This document shows, in pieces, positions 1 to 8,797 of a stretch of 64,000 nt of DNA. A program made the position numbers and the translations under genes. The stretch covers positions 1-64,000 of the forward strand of contig CALAKU010000003.1 of NCBI GenBank assembly GCA_937922925.1. Reading direction: 5' to 3'. The stretch comes from an uncultured Arenicella sp. (lineage in GTDB: Bacteria > Pseudomonadota > Gammaproteobacteria > Arenicellales > Arenicellaceae). How positions within the stretch are numbered: position 1 is the stretch's first letter; each line of letters begins with the position of its first letter. The notes under the pieces were generated by a model, which saw only the letters and a program-made list of their open reading frames with translations, was not told where the DNA came from and ran no database searches.

Positions 1-356
1 GTCATGCTAAACGTGGCAAGGCTTACATTGTGCTTGCTGCGCTTAACTTCTGGCGATTTAAGTTGCTGCACACCGTATTGCTCAACATTCTCTAAAGATG
101 AATGCTTGAGGCGAATATGATGAATGTCATTGACCGCGAACCGTTGCCCCGCTTCGGTATCAAACTCAAGATGTTGATCAAGCGCCTGGATGCGATTGGG
201 AATCGGCCACTGCTTATGTGAGTTATGCGGGTCAACTTCTGAGTCTATCCCCTGCTCAGTCAATAATCGGACCGCTTGATAAAAATCAAACTGATAGGGT
301 TGCTTGACTAGCTCGGATTCTAAATAAGTTCTTGTTCGCCCATCATCGCTGGCCAT
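1..356 (-). CDS. tssG: Type VI secretion baseplate subunit TssG (N-terminal part, cut by window edge)
   Basis: TssG pairs with TssF in the T6SS baseplate wedge on the cytoplasmic side of the inner membrane. Reading the minus strand from the ATG at 356 gives an uninterrupted 118-codon frame to the window edge. It contains the TssG-like N-terminal segment PYQFDFYQAVRLLTEQG, then a phenylalanine/isoleucine-rich stretch (about residues 65-90) consistent with the family. The start lies inside the 3' end of tssF (37-base overlap), which is common for this pair and suggests coupled translation. The remaining two thirds of the protein lies outside the window. The call rests on the N-terminal motif plus position. 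Confidence 0.85.
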   Translation of the reverse strand, partial: MASDDGRTRTYLESELVKQPYQFDFYQAVRLLTEQGIDSEVDPHNSHKQWPIPNRIQALDQHLEFDTEAGQRFAVNDIHHIRLKHSSLENVEQYGVQQLKSPEVKRSKHNVSLATFSM

Positions 357-2371
357 ATCTTGATCGCCTCCGTTTGTTGATTTGAGAACAGTTTCAGACG
401 CACAAAAGAGCCGACTGAAATAAACAAAGCGAGAAACCGTTGAACGATTTCACCAAACAATAAAATGCTGGTTTTACAACCGTGCAAACGATTCGCATCC
501 ATGTGCACGCTCATGCTTAGGCCTCGATAAAACCCGCGCCAAGCGTCTTCTCCCATATGGGTAAGCTCTTGTTCGGTAGACACATCGATAATTGCATCAA
601 TCAAACGCTGGTGAGCGACGTTATTCACGTCACAATACTGGCGCAGCAAATTTTGCAGTGTGACCGCATTTTGAGATTTAGATCGAGTTTGATCTCGCTC
701 ATCTTGAGTTTGTTCATCTTGGGCATCTGTATTGCCGGTCTCCCTTATTGAATTGTTCGACTCATCGCATAGAGTCGAAAAATTTAAGGTGAGGTGTGCG
801 ATAAGATCCCATGGTTGCCTGCCTCTCAGCGCCGGTTCTCTATAGGGCGTTGGCTTGCTAGCAACTACCACCAGATCAGTAGGGCCTTCTCCAATCAAGC
901 GCATTTGATTGCCGATACGTAGGTGTTCAACCAAGTCTCGATTAGTGCAGCTCACATGCGCAAATAACGATTGGCTGCTAGGCTGACTGATGTGAAAACT
1001 AGGGTCGTGAAACGATAAGAATGTTTCAGTGCCGGGGAAGCGCTCACCGTCGGTATAGTCGCGGCGGGAAGACCAATAACAGTCTTCGGTCTCGAGATTT
1101 AGCCCATCGGTCGTTGGCAAGAACGCGGGTATCTGTTTGGCATTGCCCTGCTCATCGACACCGATTACTTTATCAATGGAATGTATTTCACAGGTACGAT
1201 ACTGGCGCACGTCCGGGATCAACAAATACTCATATTCTTTATGATTTACGCGCACCGGCTCACTCACTAAATCATACAAGTTGATGCTCGGGATGCAGTT
1301 CGTCATCAAACTGTCTTTGTCTATTAAGCGACGATTTGACAAATCCACGTCAAAGAGAAAATACAGATCAAGGTGATCACCGTCGCATTGAATATCGTGC
1401 ACATCAAAGAAGAGAAACTTTTCTGGAAACAAAAAGTATTCTTGGATTAATCGGTAACCCGGATGCGAGCTTGCGGTGTAAGGCAGAATGGCCTGTTCCT
1501 GAGCAAAACCTTGCCAACTTAATGAGGCCTCATGGAATTGTTCAACGGTTTGTCTTGGCTGTTTATCTTTGCCTAGAATTGATTCCAAGTTCTCAGAAAA
1601 GCCTTTTACATCAAAATTGTTTTTTATCGCTGAATCAATGGTTTGAGATAAATCTATCTCAGGCTGCACTTGCTCAATGTCCTCATATTGAACTGAGGTG
1701 ACAACCGAAATTAAATTGCTATGCAGATGATCAAATAGATCGTAGGCGCGCTGATTTGATGGGTTTATAAATAAGCGTAATCGATCCAACTCCAGCTTAT
1801 CAAAGCTGACATCGTTTAGCGTTTTGAGCCGCAGTTTCAGCACCGAACGAACTCGGCGAGAATTATTTCTGAAGCGCTGTTCAATCGATTCAAACTCCTC
1901 CGCTGGCAATAAAGATAAGTCTTCAACTTCTATGGGCCAAAGTTGAGTTTCATAGGCCGTTTTCATGAAGCATTCGTGTTTTTGATTGTCTTGCGACTTT
2001 ACTTTGCGTTTAAACTGCCGCCCGCGTTCTAAGCGGAAAGGTTCAGTAAATCCTTTTACATCTGCCCTTGGGCTAACTTGCAATACCGCCATTGACGGTA
2101 TTGGTGTTTCCAAATGCGGATACAAGTACTTAAAGATATTCGAGGGCACCTGCGGCAACTCAGCGTCTAAGTTGTAGCGCAAACGAGCCGTCATGTATGA
2201 AAAGGCTTGCAACAACATTTCAACGTGCGGGTCATCTGAATGCCCTGAACCTAACCTGAGTTCACTGGCGACATCCGGGTAGTCTTCTGCAAACGCGGAA
2301 GCACGTGTTCGAATGGCTTGAATCTCGTCAAGAAAGTAGTCGACTACCTTTTCATTACCGCGGCTGATCAT
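320..2371 (-). CDS. tssF: Type VI secretion baseplate subunit TssF
   Basis: TssF (ImpG/VasA) forms the T6SS baseplate wedge with TssE, TssG and TssK. The 683-residue product opens with the family hallmark: an N-terminal helix (YFLDEIQAIR, 12-21), the DPHVEMLLQAFSYMTARL segment (47-64) and the LYPHLETPIPSM segment (83-94). The C-terminal GLSMSVHMDANRL stretch (617-629) and the final W-x-A motif also fit. It is longer than the roughly 580-620 residues I expect. Two stretches look like insertions: about 235-295, and a very hydrophilic Q/D/E/R/S segment at 534-568. Start is ATG at 2371, 23 bases after the tssE stop codon. The order tssE-tssF-tssG is classical for T6SS. Confidence 0.95.
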   Translation of the reverse strand: MISRGNEKVVDYFLDEIQAIRTRASAFAEDYPDVASELRLGSGHSDDPHVEMLLQAFSYMTARLRYNLDAELPQVPSNIFKYLYPHLETPIPSMAVLQVSPRADVKGFTEPFRLERGRQFKRKVKSQDNQKHECFMKTAYETQLWPIEVEDLSLLPAEEFESIEQRFRNNSRRVRSVLKLRLKTLNDVSFDKLELDRLRLFINPSNQRAYDLFDHLHSNLISVVTSVQYEDIEQVQPEIDLSQTIDSAIKNNFDVKGFSENLESILGKDKQPRQTVEQFHEASLSWQGFAQEQAILPYTASSHPGYRLIQEYFLFPEKFLFFDVHDIQCDGDHLDLYFLFDVDLSNRRLIDKDSLMTNCIPSINLYDLVSEPVRVNHKEYEYLLIPDVRQYRTCEIHSIDKVIGVDEQGNAKQIPAFLPTTDGLNLETEDCYWSSRRDYTDGERFPGTETFLSFHDPSFHISQPSSQSLFAHVSCTNRDLVEHLRIGNQMRLIGEGPTDLVVVASKPTPYREPALRGRQPWDLIAHLTLNFSTLCDESNNSIRETGNTDAQDEQTQDERDQTRSKSQNAVTLQNLLRQYCDVNNVAHQRLIDAIIDVSTEQELTHMGEDAWRGFYRGLSMSVHMDANRLHGCKTSILLFGEIVQRFLALFISVGSFVRLKLFSNQQTEAIKIWPAMMGEQELI

Positions 2372-2394
2372 TTGCGTATTACCTATTCAATCGC

Positions 2395-2850
2395 TCATGC
2401 ATTGGCTTGATCGACTGAGTTTTCTTGGGCCAAACCTGGATACTGATCCAGCGACATGGTCAATGGGATAGTAAATTCCGCAGGGCTGTTAGACGCTTTC
2501 AGTCTCCCTTTAACTCGAACAATAAAGTTCAGGGGGTTGCTTGCATCCGGCTCAGCTTGCACACGGACATGACTTAGCCTTGGTTCATAAACCGTGATAG
2601 CACGATGCACCTGTTGAATTAAATCACTGAGTCTTGACTGGTTGCCTTCGCCACTGCTGACTAAGTCCTCCACGCCATAGTCAAGAATCGTATTAGTCGC
2701 ACATTGCTTAAAGCCTGAAAAATGCGATCTGGTATTCAAGAGGCGATCCAGCTCCATTTCAATTGAGGACACATAGGCTTTGTGCATTTGCGCAGAGCTC
2801 AATTGCTCGGCCGTTTGCGGCGCTATGATTCGGTCAAACAAACTACGCAT
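2395..2850 (-). CDS. tssE: Type VI secretion baseplate subunit TssE (gp25-like)
   Basis: A 151-residue protein of the gp25/TssE family, the wedge component homologous to phage T4 gp25 that helps start sheath polymerisation. Visible features are the N-terminal SLFDRI segment (3-8), a short basic region ending LLNTRSH, the DYGVEDL segment (57-63) and the helix with YEPRLSHVRV (93-102). The YEPRL motif is the conserved gp25 signature. Length is normal for TssE (about 130-170). The ATG at 2850 lies 5 bases after the hcp stop, so it is almost certainly co-transcribed and perhaps coupled. Confidence 0.93.
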   Translation of the reverse strand: MRSLFDRIIAPQTAEQLSSAQMHKAYVSSIEMELDRLLNTRSHFSGFKQCATNTILDYGVEDLVSSGEGNQSRLSDLIQQVHRAITVYEPRLSHVRVQAEPDASNPLNFIVRVKGRLKASNSPAEFTIPLTMSLDQYPGLAQENSVDQANA

Positions 2851-2855
2851 CGTTC

Positions 2856-3452
2856 CTAACCGCCGTAACTCTCACTAAATTGGTTAGGACGATTACGCGC
2901 CACACTCCAGTTGGCCACTTTCGAGCCAATGATCTGAGCGTTAACGTCTTGCGCCGAATAAGTCCACTGAATGTCGGTGAAATTGAGCGTGACTTGTTCA
3001 GTCGGCATATCGTTGGGATGCGACTGACACTCGATTGAGCTCACAATCACATTGCGCATTTCAATCGTCATTATGTTCGCTATGTTGTCTTCCTCTGACT
3101 CGCCAGGGGCATTGCGTAATAAAAACAGCCGGGTTGGATTATCGGGCGAGCCGTCATCTAACGGCGTTGCCGTTAAGCACTGCTTATAGAGTGTGGTTGA
3201 GGTTTTGTCGTAATACTTAATGCATGTAATATCGGTCAGGCTGGGTCGTCCAGAGGTTCTAGCGGAATTACTCACATCGGTCGTCATTTGCTGTTTCATT
3301 GCATAGTGGTACGACATCAATTCAATCGAATTGGTAAGCGCATCGTCGGCACCAAACTTATTAACTTTGCCATCTATGCGACTGCCACCGCCTTTAATTT
3401 CACCGCCGCTCACAATATCGGGGTTACCGGGTTTTAGAAGTACGAGATCCAT
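2856..3452 (-). CDS. hcp: Hcp-family type VI tube protein (TssD)
   Basis: Hcp forms the stacked hexameric rings of the T6SS inner tube and is both structural and secreted. The 198-residue product has the Hcp pattern: an N-terminal strand, a central SIELMSYHYAM segment (about 42-52), a CIKYYDKTSTTLYKQC stretch (76-91) matching the conserved region where substrates stack on the tube, and the C-terminal VTLNFTDIQWTYSAQD motif (153-168). It is longer than the usual 160-175 residues, with an insert near 98-120 and a hydrophilic C-terminal tail after 168. It lies between the sheath fusion and tssE. Because it sits inside the structural operon, it is more likely the main tube subunit than an orphan Hcp. 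Confidence 0.92.
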   Translation of the reverse strand: MDLVLLKPGNPDIVSGGEIKGGGSRIDGKVNKFGADDALTNSIELMSYHYAMKQQMTTDVSNSARTSGRPSLTDITCIKYYDKTSTTLYKQCLTATPLDDGSPDNPTRLFLLRNAPGESEEDNIANIMTIEMRNVIVSSIECQSHPNDMPTEQVTLNFTDIQWTYSAQDVNAQIIGSKVANWSVARNRPNQFSESYGG

Positions 3453-3487
3453 AATCTTTTACCTATAATTTATTTGCTTAATCTCGC

Positions 3488-5464
3488 TTAGGCTGGCAAA
3501 TCGGCCACTAAGCGAATTGATGTGGTTAACTCTTCGAGCTGAAAATGAGGTTTTAGAAATACCGTTGCTCGATAAGAACCGGGGCGCCCGGGAATGTCAG
3601 CCACCACCACTTTTGCCTGACGCAGCGGATAACGCGCTTTGATTTCCTGTGGCGGAGAATCATCAAGCAGAACGTATTGTGATATCCAAGTATTGAGATA
3701 GTCCTCGACATTGCCTCGGGTTAGAAAAGAGCCAATTTTGTCGCGCATAATCACCTTGATGTAATGCGCAAAACGAGACGCCGCCATAACGTAAGGCAGC
3801 ATCGATGAGATGCGGGAATTCGCGTTCGCTTCGTCGGTGTTATAGAGCTTTGGCTGGTTGGTGCTTTGGCCGCCAAAGAATGCGGCCTTGCTGCTGCCTT
3901 TTTGATGACAAATCGCCATAAAGCCTAAATCATTGAGTTCTTTTTCGCGCCGATCGGTAATGGCTACCTCTGTTGGACAGGCTATTTCCTCATCGCCCTG
4001 CGCAGTCTTAAAGTCATACAGTGGCAAGCCTTCGACCAGGCCGCCACCTTCAACACCGCGAATCGCGGCTGTCCATTTGTAGAGTGAAAACGCATTAGTA
4101 ATGCGTTCAGCCAAAATATAGGCAGCCCCACTCCAAACGAAACTCTCTGAATTTAAAGCGTCTATTGATTCAGAGTAAGACAGGCCTTTAACCGGGTTTT
4201 TAATCTTGTCATAAGGTCGGCGAATTAAGACTCTTGGCATGGTCAGTGTGACATATCGAGAATCCTCAGTTTCGCGAAACTCGCGCCATGAAATAAGTTC
4301 CTGGCTTTCAAAAAGCTTGGTTAAATCACGAGGTTTGTGCAGCGACGAATAGTCAGAAATGTCAAAAAGTTTAGACTTCGCGTTCGTGATAAACGGCGCA
4401 TGCGCGGCGGCGGCCACCTTACTTATCTCTTCTAGAAATCGAAAGTCTTGCGGTAAGCGGCCAATCTCATAGTCGCCAATCAAGACGCTGAATGGATCGC
4501 CACCAAAGGTGCCGTATTCAGCCTCGTAGATCTTTTTAAACAAAGCCGACTGATCCGTCTCCACGGCCTTTGACATGTCGTCTAACAGTTCATCTCGTGT
4601 CGCGTTTAATAAACGAAGTTTGAGATATTTTCCAGTTCTGGTTTTATCGACCAAATAGTGTAGGCCACGCCAAGACCCCTCGAGTGTGCGAAATTTTTCG
4701 TGATGCAAAATGGCATCTAATGCCACACGCAGCATTTCGTCAATCCTTCCGATTCGCAAGGTAATTGCGTCAACAGAATCCTCTAGGGCGTCGGCTTTGT
4801 TATCGCCAAAAACGCCGGTGGCAAACGCCCCGAGCAATTTCATTGCCGTGGGCTTTTGATGCTCATCAAGTACCATTTTACCGTCATTAATAATTGTCTC
4901 TGCGACATCAGCTGGTGCAATTTTGCCCCACTCAGATTCAGGTTTATTCTTGAATAAATCGGCCAGCTTTTTCTTGTCGGCAGCGGTTCCTTTGGTGGTA
5001 TTCAATAAGGCATGCAATGCGTCGTTTCCATCGACTTTTGCGAGCAAATCTCGTAGATGCTTGCGCTCAACATAAAGCGTATTGAGGCGTTCAACTCGTT
5101 GCACAACCATTTGTGGTTCAAAGTGTTCAACCTTTGTGAAATCAATCACCACCTTGGCACGATCCCATGCAAATTCAGGAGCCGGATTCGGTTTTTGATC
5201 GGCCGTTAAGGCCTCCCATTCAAGTTCGAGTCGGGGATTAATCTTCTCAAGTACTTCGTCAAAATTGTCGCGATCAAGCTGCACGAACTTACGTTCCTTT
5301 AATGGCTCTAGAGGCGATTCTGGATCACCTGAGAGATCTGCGAGAATCCCTGCAATAAAGGGCAGCTCTCTCATCTGGATCGCATCGCCTATTTCAACGT
5401 CGTAGGTGATTTGAACCCGCGGTGGCCTGGTCCGGCCTATTTCATTTTGATAGCTTTCATTCAC
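3488..5464 (-). CDS. tssBC: Natural TssB-TssC fusion, single-chain T6SS contractile sheath protein
   Basis: Canonical T6SS sheaths are built from two separate proteins, TssB (VipA, about 165 residues) and TssC (VipB, about 495). Here one uninterrupted 658-residue frame carries both. Residues 1 to about 158 are TssB: RVQITYDVEIGDA (16-28), MRELPFIAGILADLSG (31-46), VERLNTLYVERKHLRDLLAK (124-143). A linker follows (about 159-184), then TssC from about 185 to the end: VALDAILHH (247-255), EGSWRGLHYLV (262-272), YEAEYGTFGGDPF (313-325), and a C-terminal sheath domain to 658. No stop codon or frame change separates the parts. The start is GTG at 5464 with an upstream GAGG; there is no ATG before codon 31, inside a conserved TssB motif. 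Such a chain resembles the single-protein sheaths of contractile phages. Confidence 0.93.
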   Translation of the reverse strand: MNESYQNEIGRTRPPRVQITYDVEIGDAIQMRELPFIAGILADLSGDPESPLEPLKERKFVQLDRDNFDEVLEKINPRLELEWEALTADQKPNPAPEFAWDRAKVVIDFTKVEHFEPQMVVQRVERLNTLYVERKHLRDLLAKVDGNDALHALLNTTKGTAADKKKLADLFKNKPESEWGKIAPADVAETIINDGKMVLDEHQKPTAMKLLGAFATGVFGDNKADALEDSVDAITLRIGRIDEMLRVALDAILHHEKFRTLEGSWRGLHYLVDKTRTGKYLKLRLLNATRDELLDDMSKAVETDQSALFKKIYEAEYGTFGGDPFSVLIGDYEIGRLPQDFRFLEEISKVAAAAHAPFITNAKSKLFDISDYSSLHKPRDLTKLFESQELISWREFRETEDSRYVTLTMPRVLIRRPYDKIKNPVKGLSYSESIDALNSESFVWSGAAYILAERITNAFSLYKWTAAIRGVEGGGLVEGLPLYDFKTAQGDEEIACPTEVAITDRREKELNDLGFMAICHQKGSSKAAFFGGQSTNQPKLYNTDEANANSRISSMLPYVMAASRFAHYIKVIMRDKIGSFLTRGNVEDYLNTWISQYVLLDDSPPQEIKARYPLRQAKVVVADIPGRPGSYRATVFLKPHFQLEELTTSIRLVADLPA

Positions 5465-6189: not shown

Positions 6190-6266
6190 CTCCCCGTAGC
6201 ATAATTGGATAATGCAATCGCCTCCTAAGCGATAGATTGTTGGTTCGAGTCCAATCGGGGAGGCCA
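6190..6266 (+). tRNA. tRNA-Arg (anticodon CCT)
   Basis: A full cloverleaf can be drawn. The acceptor stem is CTCCCCG (6190-6196) with CGGGGAG (6256-6262). The D arm has GCAT/ATGC around an AATTGGATA loop. The anticodon stem is ATCGC/GCGAT (6217-6221, 6229-6233) around loop CTCCTAA, giving anticodon CCT (6224-6226), which reads AGG. The T arm is GTTGG-TTCGAGT-CCAAT. G6263 is the discriminator and CCA (6264-6266) is encoded. No second copy of its 3' end was seen in the window, so there is no sign of a tRNA-targeted island here. Confidence 0.95.
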
Positions 6267-6357: not shown

Positions 6358-7848
6358 ATGAACAGCAATATTCAAAAGGAAATAAACTCCACTGGCGGAT
6401 TGAGTCGTCGATTGTTTCTTGGCGGTTCTGCGGCGATGGTCAGTTTCGCAACCACCAGAATCGAAAGTTGGCTGAGCCACGATTATTCTCAATTTGGTCT
6501 GGATCAACTCTTTTCGGCCTTTACGCAGTCATTAAACCCAATTCAAAAACAACAAATCGTGTTGCCTGCGGATCATCCCATGCGGCAAGTGACGCTCACA
6601 CAAGCGACGTTTAATGGGCCTCATATAGGCTCCTTGTTTAATTGGCAGCAGATCGAGTTATTGCGCGCCATCTATTCCAAATTATTGTCAGAGCAAGGCC
6701 AAGCGTGGCTGGCCAATACCGTTTCGCTAGAAGGTTTGTTTGAGGCCGCGCTCGTCAGAATTTATTCCAGCGCCCCCAGCAGGATGACACTGCGTAATTC
6801 TCAGATTGTTCTCAATGGCGGTCACTTCCTTTTGCGCTCTCAAGATATTGCGGGTTCGGGCTACGCCCTTGGCGGGCCAGTCTCCTACGGCCAGCAAATT
6901 GGTAATAATCGTTTTAAGGTTCAAGGCAATGCCTTTAAGGCGCACGGCGATGCCGTCGATCAACTACACAACACCTTAAACCAAGCGGAACGGCTCAAAG
7001 CTTACAGAGCAGTGACGCCAAATGAGTTGAACTTGCAGCTACGCGGTGCTGCCAAGCGGACAAACAATCGTTTGGCGGATGGACTTAACATTGGTCAGGC
7101 TTCTGAGGCTGCTCAAGAAGTGGCCGCTGAGACAATTAAAACCCTTCTCAGCGGATTTTCAGCAAGCCATCAAAACGATGCCTGGGCAGCCATCGAAAAC
7201 AATGGCGGAATTAGCGAGTTAAGTCTAAGCCTTTGCCAAGATTATGGTTTTTACGCGAACGGAGAACGATTCTCAGAACTCAGCCAAACACAAAAAAACA
7301 CGCTTGGCCTGCCCTATTTTCAGGTTTGGCGCATCGAAGGGCCAGCATTGACGATTCACTTTCAAGGCTATCCGCATGTTCATGCCTATATGAATATAGC
7401 GAATGACGTTAGCAAAACGGCCATTGGAGAAACGCTTGGCGAAACTCAAATTGGCTTAAGCGAATCCCAAGTGCAAAGCATGATGATGGCCGTGCTACGC
7501 AACAACACAGGTGCTGACTTTGCCTTTATGCCGGCTCAGTTCAGTTATCGATTATCGCCGGGGGTTATAAGCACCGGAAGCATTCACGCCTTAGACCCCT
7601 TTGGGAATACGATCGTCGTCGCCGAGGTAGATGAGAGAACCATGTCGGCCGAGCTTAGAGACTCACTTAAACGCCAAGGGGCTCCTCTTAAAACCGGTGG
7701 AAAGCTACGAATTGCAACCATCGACTACATGCTCCAACGACCAGATCTATTTGCTCCAAGCGAAACTGTTGAAACCTCAGAAAACCGCTTGAGAGATGCC
7801 TTAATTGACTTGATTCGTAGCGAACGTGTCGATCAACGCTATGTCTAG
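6358..7848 (+). CDS. Tat-exported protein, possibly DUF3500-like
   Basis: The 496-residue product begins with a twin-arginine signal: LSRRLFLGG at 15-23 followed by a short hydrophobic stretch, so it is probably exported folded, perhaps with a cofactor. I do not recognise the mature protein with certainty. It has an N-terminal helical region (LFSAFTQSLNPIQKQQI), a mid region rich in N/Q/A, and a C-terminal segment VWRIEGPALTIHFQ followed by HVHAY, which recalls DUF3500 proteins (iron-dependent or unknown enzymes); that match is weak. The gene lies 91 bases after the tRNA and its last bases overlap the start of the FecCD-like permease gene, so the two are probably made together and act together. 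Confidence 0.7.
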   Translation: MNSNIQKEINSTGGLSRRLFLGGSAAMVSFATTRIESWLSHDYSQFGLDQLFSAFTQSLNPIQKQQIVLPADHPMRQVTLTQATFNGPHIGSLFNWQQIELLRAIYSKLLSEQGQAWLANTVSLEGLFEAALVRIYSSAPSRMTLRNSQIVLNGGHFLLRSQDIAGSGYALGGPVSYGQQIGNNRFKVQGNAFKAHGDAVDQLHNTLNQAERLKAYRAVTPNELNLQLRGAAKRTNNRLADGLNIGQASEAAQEVAAETIKTLLSGFSASHQNDAWAAIENNGGISELSLSLCQDYGFYANGERFSELSQTQKNTLGLPYFQVWRIEGPALTIHFQGYPHVHAYMNIANDVSKTAIGETLGETQIGLSESQVQSMMMAVLRNNTGADFAFMPAQFSYRLSPGVISTGSIHALDPFGNTIVVAEVDERTMSAELRDSLKRQGAPLKTGGKLRIATIDYMLQRPDLFAPSETVETSENRLRDALIDLIRSERVDQRYV

Positions 7849-8797
7849 CTCAAGCGCTAGCAAAGTAACTTTCGCGAGCCTAGCGATTATCGGCTTGCTT
7901 GTATTCGCTGTTTCAAGTTCTTATCGTTTGGGGCTGGTTGATTTGAGTTTTGTTTGGCAGGTCAATGTTCAACGCTATGCTCCTCTTTTGGCAGCTGGGC
8001 TTGCCTTTGGTTTACTTGGCGCTATGAGATCTAGCTTTAGCAAGCTGGGCACTCACGTTCTAGGCTTTAGCCTCGTGGCCACAGTAAGCTCCTTATTGTT
8101 ACTGGGCCAGCTAGTGTTTGAGAACTGGTGGGCCGGGCTTATTGGTGCCGGATTCTTCATCGCTGCTCTACTCTTTTCGGCACGCAAGTATTACTCCAGT
8201 TTAGATCAGGGGAGCGTACTTATTTTGGTAAGCCTTGTCGCTTTTGGGTTGCTACTTTCAATTGCTAATTATCTTGGCGCCGCTTTTGTAGGTGGCCAAA
8301 TTGGCTCACTGATTTTCTGGTCTCAAGGCTATCCATTTGCCTTTGGCTCGTTCGGTGTGTGGATGCTTCCGGCATGCCTTGTATTGATGATTGTGGCGCT
8401 GCGCTCAAGTGATAAAGAACTTCCGCAATTACTATTGATGGGCTTAGGCCTTGGTGTTGTTGGCCCTTTATTCTTTATCGCCTATTTAGCACCACTTATT
8501 GCCAGTGCTGTTATTAGCAATAAAGATTCTCGATGGCTTTTGCTTTTGAGCGCTTTACTCGGAGCACTCATCGTCGCGTTTGCTCATCTTATTCCGAGCC
8601 TACTAATTGGCGGTTATACGCCCAGTTTGATCATCCCAATCGCCGCTCTAGCGCTGCCCTTGATAGTCTGGAATTCAAGACAAAGCAGTGACACAGCGAG
8701 CAAAAACATCCTCAAAGGTTTAGCCGCTATGCTATGGATTGTCTTAGTACTTAGCGTGGTTTATCAAGTTGCGCATTATGCTGCGCCTCTGATCTAA
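7841..8797 (+). CDS. Divergent FecCD/BtuC-like membrane permease
   Basis: A very hydrophobic 318-residue protein with about nine or ten membrane segments. The ATG at 7841 overlaps the previous gene's stop by eight bases (ATGTCTAG); a GTG at 7826 is a less likely start. Although divergent, the order of features follows FecCD permeases of iron-siderophore and B12 importers: a QRYAPLLAAGLAFGLLGA segment where RLPR-LLAGAALA-GA is expected, FWSQGYPFAFGSF where W-x-GS is expected, GPLFFIAYLAPLIASAV where G-x-FVGLVAPHI-R is expected, then SALLGALIVAFAHLI. The conserved His/Arg of that PH-R motif are missing. No ATPase or binding-protein gene is adjacent. Function as an importer half is an inference. 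Confidence 0.6.
   Translation: MSSSSASKVTFASLAIIGLLVFAVSSSYRLGLVDLSFVWQVNVQRYAPLLAAGLAFGLLGAMRSSFSKLGTHVLGFSLVATVSSLLLLGQLVFENWWAGLIGAGFFIAALLFSARKYYSSLDQGSVLILVSLVAFGLLLSIANYLGAAFVGGQIGSLIFWSQGYPFAFGSFGVWMLPACLVLMIVALRSSDKELPQLLLMGLGLGVVGPLFFIAYLAPLIASAVISNKDSRWLLLLSALLGALIVAFAHLIPSLLIGGYTPSLIIPIAALALPLIVWNSRQSSDTASKNILKGLAAMLWIVLVLSVVYQVAHYAAPLI

Follow-up and report, generated by a model that had tools for sequence, protein, structure and literature searches.

Background

ABC importers are defined by their ATPase. In type II importers, of which BhuUV is an example, the permease contacts the ATPase through a coupling helix that lies on its cytoplasmic side, between TM6 and TM7, according to the text available for PMC5136619; for type I importers, the accessible portion of PMC7658222 reports ATPase sharing. 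HupE/UreJ proteins are reported to be Ni/Co transporters (PMC7689651, as far as its text was available), and the extracytoplasmic domains attached to them are described as metal-binding 'anglerases' in the accessible part of PMC12537917. There is scarcely any literature on DUF3500 (Pfam PF12006). In the portions available to us, a review puts forward a DUF3500 protein of Aspergillus nidulans as a putative ring-opening dioxygenase of gallate breakdown (PMC12388069), and no other functional statement on DUF3500 was found.

The gene pair and its surroundings

The window analysed here, a stretch of 64 kb, comes from the Arenicella-type metagenome-assembled genome (MAG) G000, which comprises 2.69 Mb and is 87.6% complete. 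The two genes of interest sit on the + strand between a tRNA-Arg gene and a convergent gene that resembles queA by eye:

6190..6266, + strand: tRNA-Arg(CCT) gene (ARAGORN), just 5' of the Tat gene, a neighbour outside the module
6358..7848, + strand: open reading frame (ORF) of a two-domain protein of 496 aa with predicted Tat export, containing SRRLFLGGSAAM
7841..7848, + strand: start/stop overlap of the Tat gene and the permease gene, 8 nt
7841..8797, + strand: ORF of a FecCD/BtuC-derived permease of 318 aa without the ATPase-docking segment (Pfam, BtuC profile match, profile-profile alignment)

Both ORFs are intact, and the permease ATG at 7841 (ATGTCTAG) overlaps the stop of the Tat gene, just as the first-pass annotation had read it. 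A promoter and terminator scan gave no promoter-like site 5' of the Tat start. The GC content at the pair is 0.46-0.48 per kb, similar to the surroundings, and therefore gives no sign of recent foreign origin. A match to CcmE (cytochrome c maturation), at 16.3 bits against a cut-off of 152, was rejected as chance. Just upstream of the tRNA gene, the opposite strand (320-5464, -) carries type VI secretion genes, which by eye resemble those for TssF, TssE, Hcp and TssC.

Among 109 searched genomes of the order, both genes are present in the same six, all of them in the genus of the window (6 of 18 Arenicella genomes); neither gene was detected in the 91 genomes outside the genus. The pairing is not chance, because the same six genomes carry both genes. 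In five of them the genes are adjacent on one contig. In the sixth (G011), one contig breaks off after the Tat gene and the start of the permease gene (matching residues 7-94 of the query), and another contig opens with a very similar permease. Two additional contig matches have the same lengths as G011:C164 and G013:C218; they appear to be these contigs again and do not count as independent genomes. The distance between the Tat stop and the permease start varies among the relatives from a 20-nt overlap to a 4-nt gap, depending on the choice of start codon. Judged by eye, the flanks mostly differ between genomes. The pair is flanked by type VI secretion-like genes and queA in the window, whereas G015 has rpoC with a citrate-synthase-like gene there, and G016 has groEL-like and other genes. 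Therefore, the conserved unit consists of the two genes, and both the conserved exported/membrane module that had been proposed and the conservation of the overlapping pair in relatives are borne out by the survey. As an exception, G007 and G016 have two small genes in common upstream of the pair, cupin-like and GFA-like by eye (G016, L060:7506-8370; G007, L062:5416-6240), which are possibly part of the module in this branch.

No pair was found outside Arenicella in a class sample of 369 genomes, where full-length matches occurred in G000 and G016 only, or in a phylum sample of 398 genomes, where G000 alone was recovered at E<=1e-6. No match was found on plasmids. Seven further genomes of the class sample match only the C-terminal domain of the Tat protein profile, and the three that were read by eye (L024-L026) resemble ordinary 5'-nucleotidases. 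Between species, the permeases are 23-45% identical and the exported proteins 40-62%. The pairwise distances measured for one protein track those for the other (r 0.76, Mantel p 0.004, 720 permutations, six taxa), a correlation that species ancestry alone could be sufficient to cause.

The exported protein

The product of the first gene carries a Tat-type motif (SRRLFLGG) followed by two domains:

6358..6471, + strand: Tat-type signal region, Arg17-Arg18 invariant in 6/6 followed by a hydrophobic stretch; export predicted from the motif
6487..7413, + strand: DUF3500-like domain, residues 44-352 (hhalign to eight canonical DUF3500 proteins)
6823..6825, + strand: His156, putative metal ligand, at the position of the first His in the GHH motif of DUF3500
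7375..7383, + strand: His340-Val-His342 (HxH), putative metal ligands, both His invariant
7429..7767, + strand: 5'-nucleotidase C-terminal-like domain, residues about 358-470, with PFxN motif (PF02872 match)

A profile-profile search, suggested along with the first reading of the locus, identified the N-terminal domain: residues 44-352 align with the eight canonical DUF3500 proteins at E 1.7e-12 with a score of 97.7, while 30 shuffled controls reached at most 25.3 and the reversed control 20.1. The Pfam DUF3500 model gives 3.2e-4 and 20.8 bits for the protein of the window, below the gathering score of 27.2, and the relative in G016 clears this cut-off with 34.9 bits. His156, His340 and His342 are invariant in 6/6 Arenicella proteins and in 8/8 canonical DUF3500 proteins, and the second His of the DUF3500 GHH is missing from the Arenicella protein. 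From this conservation it is plausible that the three-histidine site binds metal.

The C-terminal domain matches PF02872, a domain that also occurs in UshA, over residues 367-425 with 27.8 bits, above the gathering score of 23.6; five of the six members match at E<=0.01. An AlphaFold2 model of the protein, built from three sequences only, had a pLDDT of 39.6.

An orphan permease without the ATPase-docking segment

The FecCD relationship that had been recognized in the second protein was confirmed at the sequence level by three comparisons. Pfam FecCD (PF01032) matches the permease of the window at 1.3e-5 with 24.8 bits, slightly below the cut-off of 26.5, and matches five of the six family members at E<=0.01. 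A profile built from the six sequences covers most of Escherichia coli BtuC at 4.9e-8, with the match divided into two segments: residues 13-199 align with BtuC 15-214 and residues 203-282 with BtuC 242-320, so that the break falls at BtuC residues 214-242. In addition, profile-profile alignment of the six orphans with 17 canonical FecCD permeases of Arenicella (those of 24 matches that have a full-length locus) gave E 9e-11 and a score of 81.9, against a maximum of 28.1 among 30 block-shuffled controls and 14.3 for the reversed control. According to the profile-profile alignment, the FecCD core is kept along the permease, which has 21 invariant positions among the six sequences, including GP and GGYxP and a single His, H72. 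FecCD was its sole Pfam match; no match to HupE/UreJ (PF13795) was found in the permease or elsewhere in G000. HupE is present in seven of the 18 genomes of the genus, one of which also has the pair. The AlphaFold2 model of the permease, from two sequences only, had a pLDDT of 42.7, too low for a judgement on a BtuC-like fold.

Two features set the orphans apart along their length:

8402..8428, + strand: short TM6-TM7 joint, residues about 188-196, with 26 residues including the coupling helix missing (W160-to-G208 distance)
8717..8773, + strand: extra C-terminal hydrophobic segment, residues 293-311, past the FecCD core (family alignment hydropathy)

The conserved Trp that precedes TM6 and the conserved Gly in the GPxxF region lie 48 residues apart in 6/6 orphans, whereas the distance is 74 in 17/17 canonical FecCDs. 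Fifteen of the 17 canonical proteins contain LGESEARHLG, which the profile-profile alignment places in the gap of the orphans. The loss of the PH..R residues after the GxxxF region, which had been noted for the window, holds in part across the family: the His is gone in 6/6 orphans, and the Arg is gone in the protein of the window but still stands at that place in three of the six.

In agreement with the first-pass annotation, no ABC ATPase adjoins the pair: a motif search detected none among the ORFs of the 64-kb window, nor in six stretches surrounding the relatives, each at least 6.4 kb long. In comparison, an ATPase gene adjoins the permease gene at 17/17 canonical FecCD loci. A canonical FepC/BtuD-type ATPase query matches at E<=1e-40 in 16 of the 18 genomes of the genus. 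The two that give no such match, G000 and G011, are likewise the only two in which a canonical FecCD permease is missing. The idea of a co-occurring lone BtuD-like ATPase thus found no support at this threshold in these two members, both MAGs of about 88% completeness, and it may be this incompleteness that accounts for the absence of canonical FecCD and ATPase. Because all members have lost the docking segment and no FepC-grade ATPase was found in G000 or G011, the orphan permease does not qualify as an ordinary ABC importer, and the distinction from normal ABC importers that had been drawn from the window alone was upheld.

DUF3500 relatives and their neighbours

Two canonical DUF3500 proteins served as queries against plasmids and gave overlapping sets of 52 and 44 records; 14 of these loci were opened. 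In 10 of the 14, a HupE/UreJ gene or a gene for a small, probably exported protein lies beside DUF3500. In four, HupE/UreJ is the next gene or the one after it: Spirosoma and Deinococcus aetherius pDAETH-1 (both confirmed by Pfam PF13795), Deinococcus pDAETH-2 (by annotation) and Paenibacillus (unannotated, by eye and BLAST). In the other six (Falsirhodobacter, Shinella, Komagataeibacter, Sphingomonas, Agrobacterium and Qipengyuania), a protein of 156-187 aa, mostly with a signal-like N-terminus by eye, is encoded at once after DUF3500; two of these proteins are relatives of the HupE/UreJ extracytoplasmic part, and four group with a small protein of pDAETH-1. Neither kind of neighbour was found in the remaining four loci (Hymenobacter, Pannonibacter, Singulisphaera and Streptomyces). 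In the genome G748, a HupE/UreJ gene comes after each of two DUF3500 genes (by eye; one confirmed by Pfam), and no HupE was seen by eye near canonical DUF3500 in six whole-genome loci (L017-L019, L050-L052).

Several of these arrangements deserve mention in their own right. DUF3500 directly or nearly directly before HupE/UreJ recurs in several phyla (L065, L067, L068, L074, and L053-L055 of G748) and goes unmentioned in the portions of the DUF3500 literature available to us. The small proteins that follow DUF3500, in two sequence groups, stand alone in Alphaproteobacteria (L069, L070, L073, L076, L077, L078). On the Hymenobacter plasmid (L066), a TonB-dependent siderophore-type receptor precedes two DUF3500 genes. 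On the Shinella plasmid (L070), DUF3500 lies near a tannase gene, in agreement with the gallate-pathway proposal for the fungal protein.

Of the metal, heme or corrinoid handling suggested for the pair at first sight, metal appears plausible from the DUF3500 His triad and the DUF3500-HupE neighbourhood, and nothing specific supports heme or corrinoid.

Possible function of the module

The reading that we favour, tentatively and at somewhat less than even probability, is a two-part envelope module in which an exported metal-site protein works with an ATP-independent, FecCD-derived membrane partner, by analogy with DUF3500 and HupE. The Tat protein, with its putative three-His metal site in a DUF3500-type domain and its 5'-nucleotidase C-terminal-like ligand domain, would capture or oxidatively process a metal ion or a metal-bound small molecule, and the permease, acting as a facilitator or an ion-coupled carrier, would let this cargo through the inner membrane with no use of ATP. 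The helix that an ABC ATPase grips on the cytoplasmic side is deleted; therefore, such an ATPase could not drive this permease in the usual way. Several findings count against the favoured reading. The identity of the permease between species lies below the mean of 68% among 15 canonical BtuC-type permeases, and such low conservation is unusual for a specific transporter. No HupE adjoins DUF3500 at four of the 14 plasmid loci, nor, by eye, the canonical DUF3500 genes in six whole genomes. Some DUF3500 genes lie near genes of aromatic degradation (tannase), which, like the fungal dioxygenase proposal, is as compatible with an enzyme as with a metal carrier. In addition, the pair is known from only six genomes of one genus, and one of the copies is split over two contigs.

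The main rival, unlikely on balance but to be taken seriously, is that the FecCD-derived protein does not transport at all and serves as a membrane anchor, assembly factor or electron-relay partner of an exported, metal-dependent oxygenase of the DUF3500 type. MsrPQ is a known pair of a Tat enzyme and a membrane protein. The faster divergence of the permease than of the exported protein, the conserved His triad of the latter, the invariant H72 of the former and the fungal dioxygenase proposal would all suit such an arrangement. However, H72 is the single invariant His in the membrane protein, and bis-His heme is therefore unlikely; the FecCD core is retained over the whole length with its invariant GP and GGYxP, and known metal permeases occur among the DUF3500 neighbours elsewhere. 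We consider it improbable that the pair takes up nucleosides, nucleotides or a nucleotide-containing cofactor, with the 5'-nucleotidase C-like domain binding the nucleoside moiety and handing it to the permease. The above-threshold PF02872 match shared by five of six members, the PFxN that is kept, and BtuC as the nearest solved relative of the permease speak for it, since the ligand of BtuC has a nucleotide loop. Nevertheless, Pfam found no metallophosphatase domain in the Tat protein, and, judged by eye, it has other residues in place of the GGDG[FY] that the 5'-nucleotidase domain shows in L026, a change that may have abolished base binding.

It is more improbable still that the permease works in a genuine ABC importer, drawing on a shared ATPase encoded at a distance and on a binding protein from elsewhere. 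Four of the six genomes with the pair also have canonical FecCD systems with their ATPases, and the ATPase sharing of type I importers offers a precedent; however, the docking segment is deleted in all six orphans, and G000 and G011 yielded no FepC-grade ATPase, although the missing part of these MAGs leaves room for one. Least probable of all, and very much so, is a decaying remnant of a transporter operon without present function. The low identity of the permease between species and its patchy presence in 6 of 18 genomes are what a remnant might show, but the frames are open and overlapping or abutting in every complete copy, the 21 invariant positions persist in the permease, and the 26-residue deletion is identical throughout.

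A wider proposal may be ventured, which we regard as rather doubtful: a type II ABC permease would have shed its ATP motor, a Tat-exported DUF3500/5'-nucleotidase-C fusion replacing the binding protein, and DUF3500 proteins would generally be exported metal-site partners of ATP-independent permeases, with an exchangeable permease family (HupE/UreJ or FecCD-derived). The orphan permeases, a natural family with a FecCD core and a cleanly deleted docking helix, allow a direct test of whether the FecCD fold can transport without ATP or can be reused as a membrane scaffold. DUF3500 gains a working hypothesis, namely an exported three-histidine protein with a membrane permease as partner. No paper on an ATPase-less FecCD permease or on this pair was found in the portions of the literature searched.

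Comparison with known systems

The component families of the module are known; what is new is their combination and the clean deletion. Compared with DUF3500 (PF12006), the N-terminal domain of the Arenicella protein aligns nearly end to end and has the three His in common with all eight canonical proteins; it differs in that the protein of the window scores below the Pfam cut-off, lacks the second His of GHH, and has an extra 5'-nucleotidase-like C domain and a Tat-type signal. This C domain is like that of 5'-nucleotidases (PF02872) in its score above the cut-off and its PFxN motif, but it is joined to a DUF3500-like domain and not to a metallophosphatase domain. The orphan permease resembles BtuC/FecCD (PF01032) in its similar TM series, the conserved Arg near the start of TM2, the GxxxF region, the C-terminal layout and homology over most of the length, whereas it differs by the loss of 26 residues with the coupling helix and of the PH..R His, by the extra C-terminal segment and by having no adjacent ATPase. 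The loci of DUF3500 with HupE/UreJ (PF13795), and the 'anglerases', share with the pair a gene order in which the exported protein comes first and a multi-pass membrane protein follows at once; in Arenicella, however, the membrane partner belongs to another, FecCD-derived family, and G000 has no HupE match. The TRAP transporters, in which an ATP-independent permease is combined with a periplasmic binding protein (PMC9352664, as far as its text was available), are comparable in their way of working only. Taken together, certain species of the marine genus Arenicella make a motor-less permease, of the type that takes up vitamin B12 or iron, along with a single exported protein that probably binds metal, and this suggests a two-part, motor-free uptake or enzyme system.
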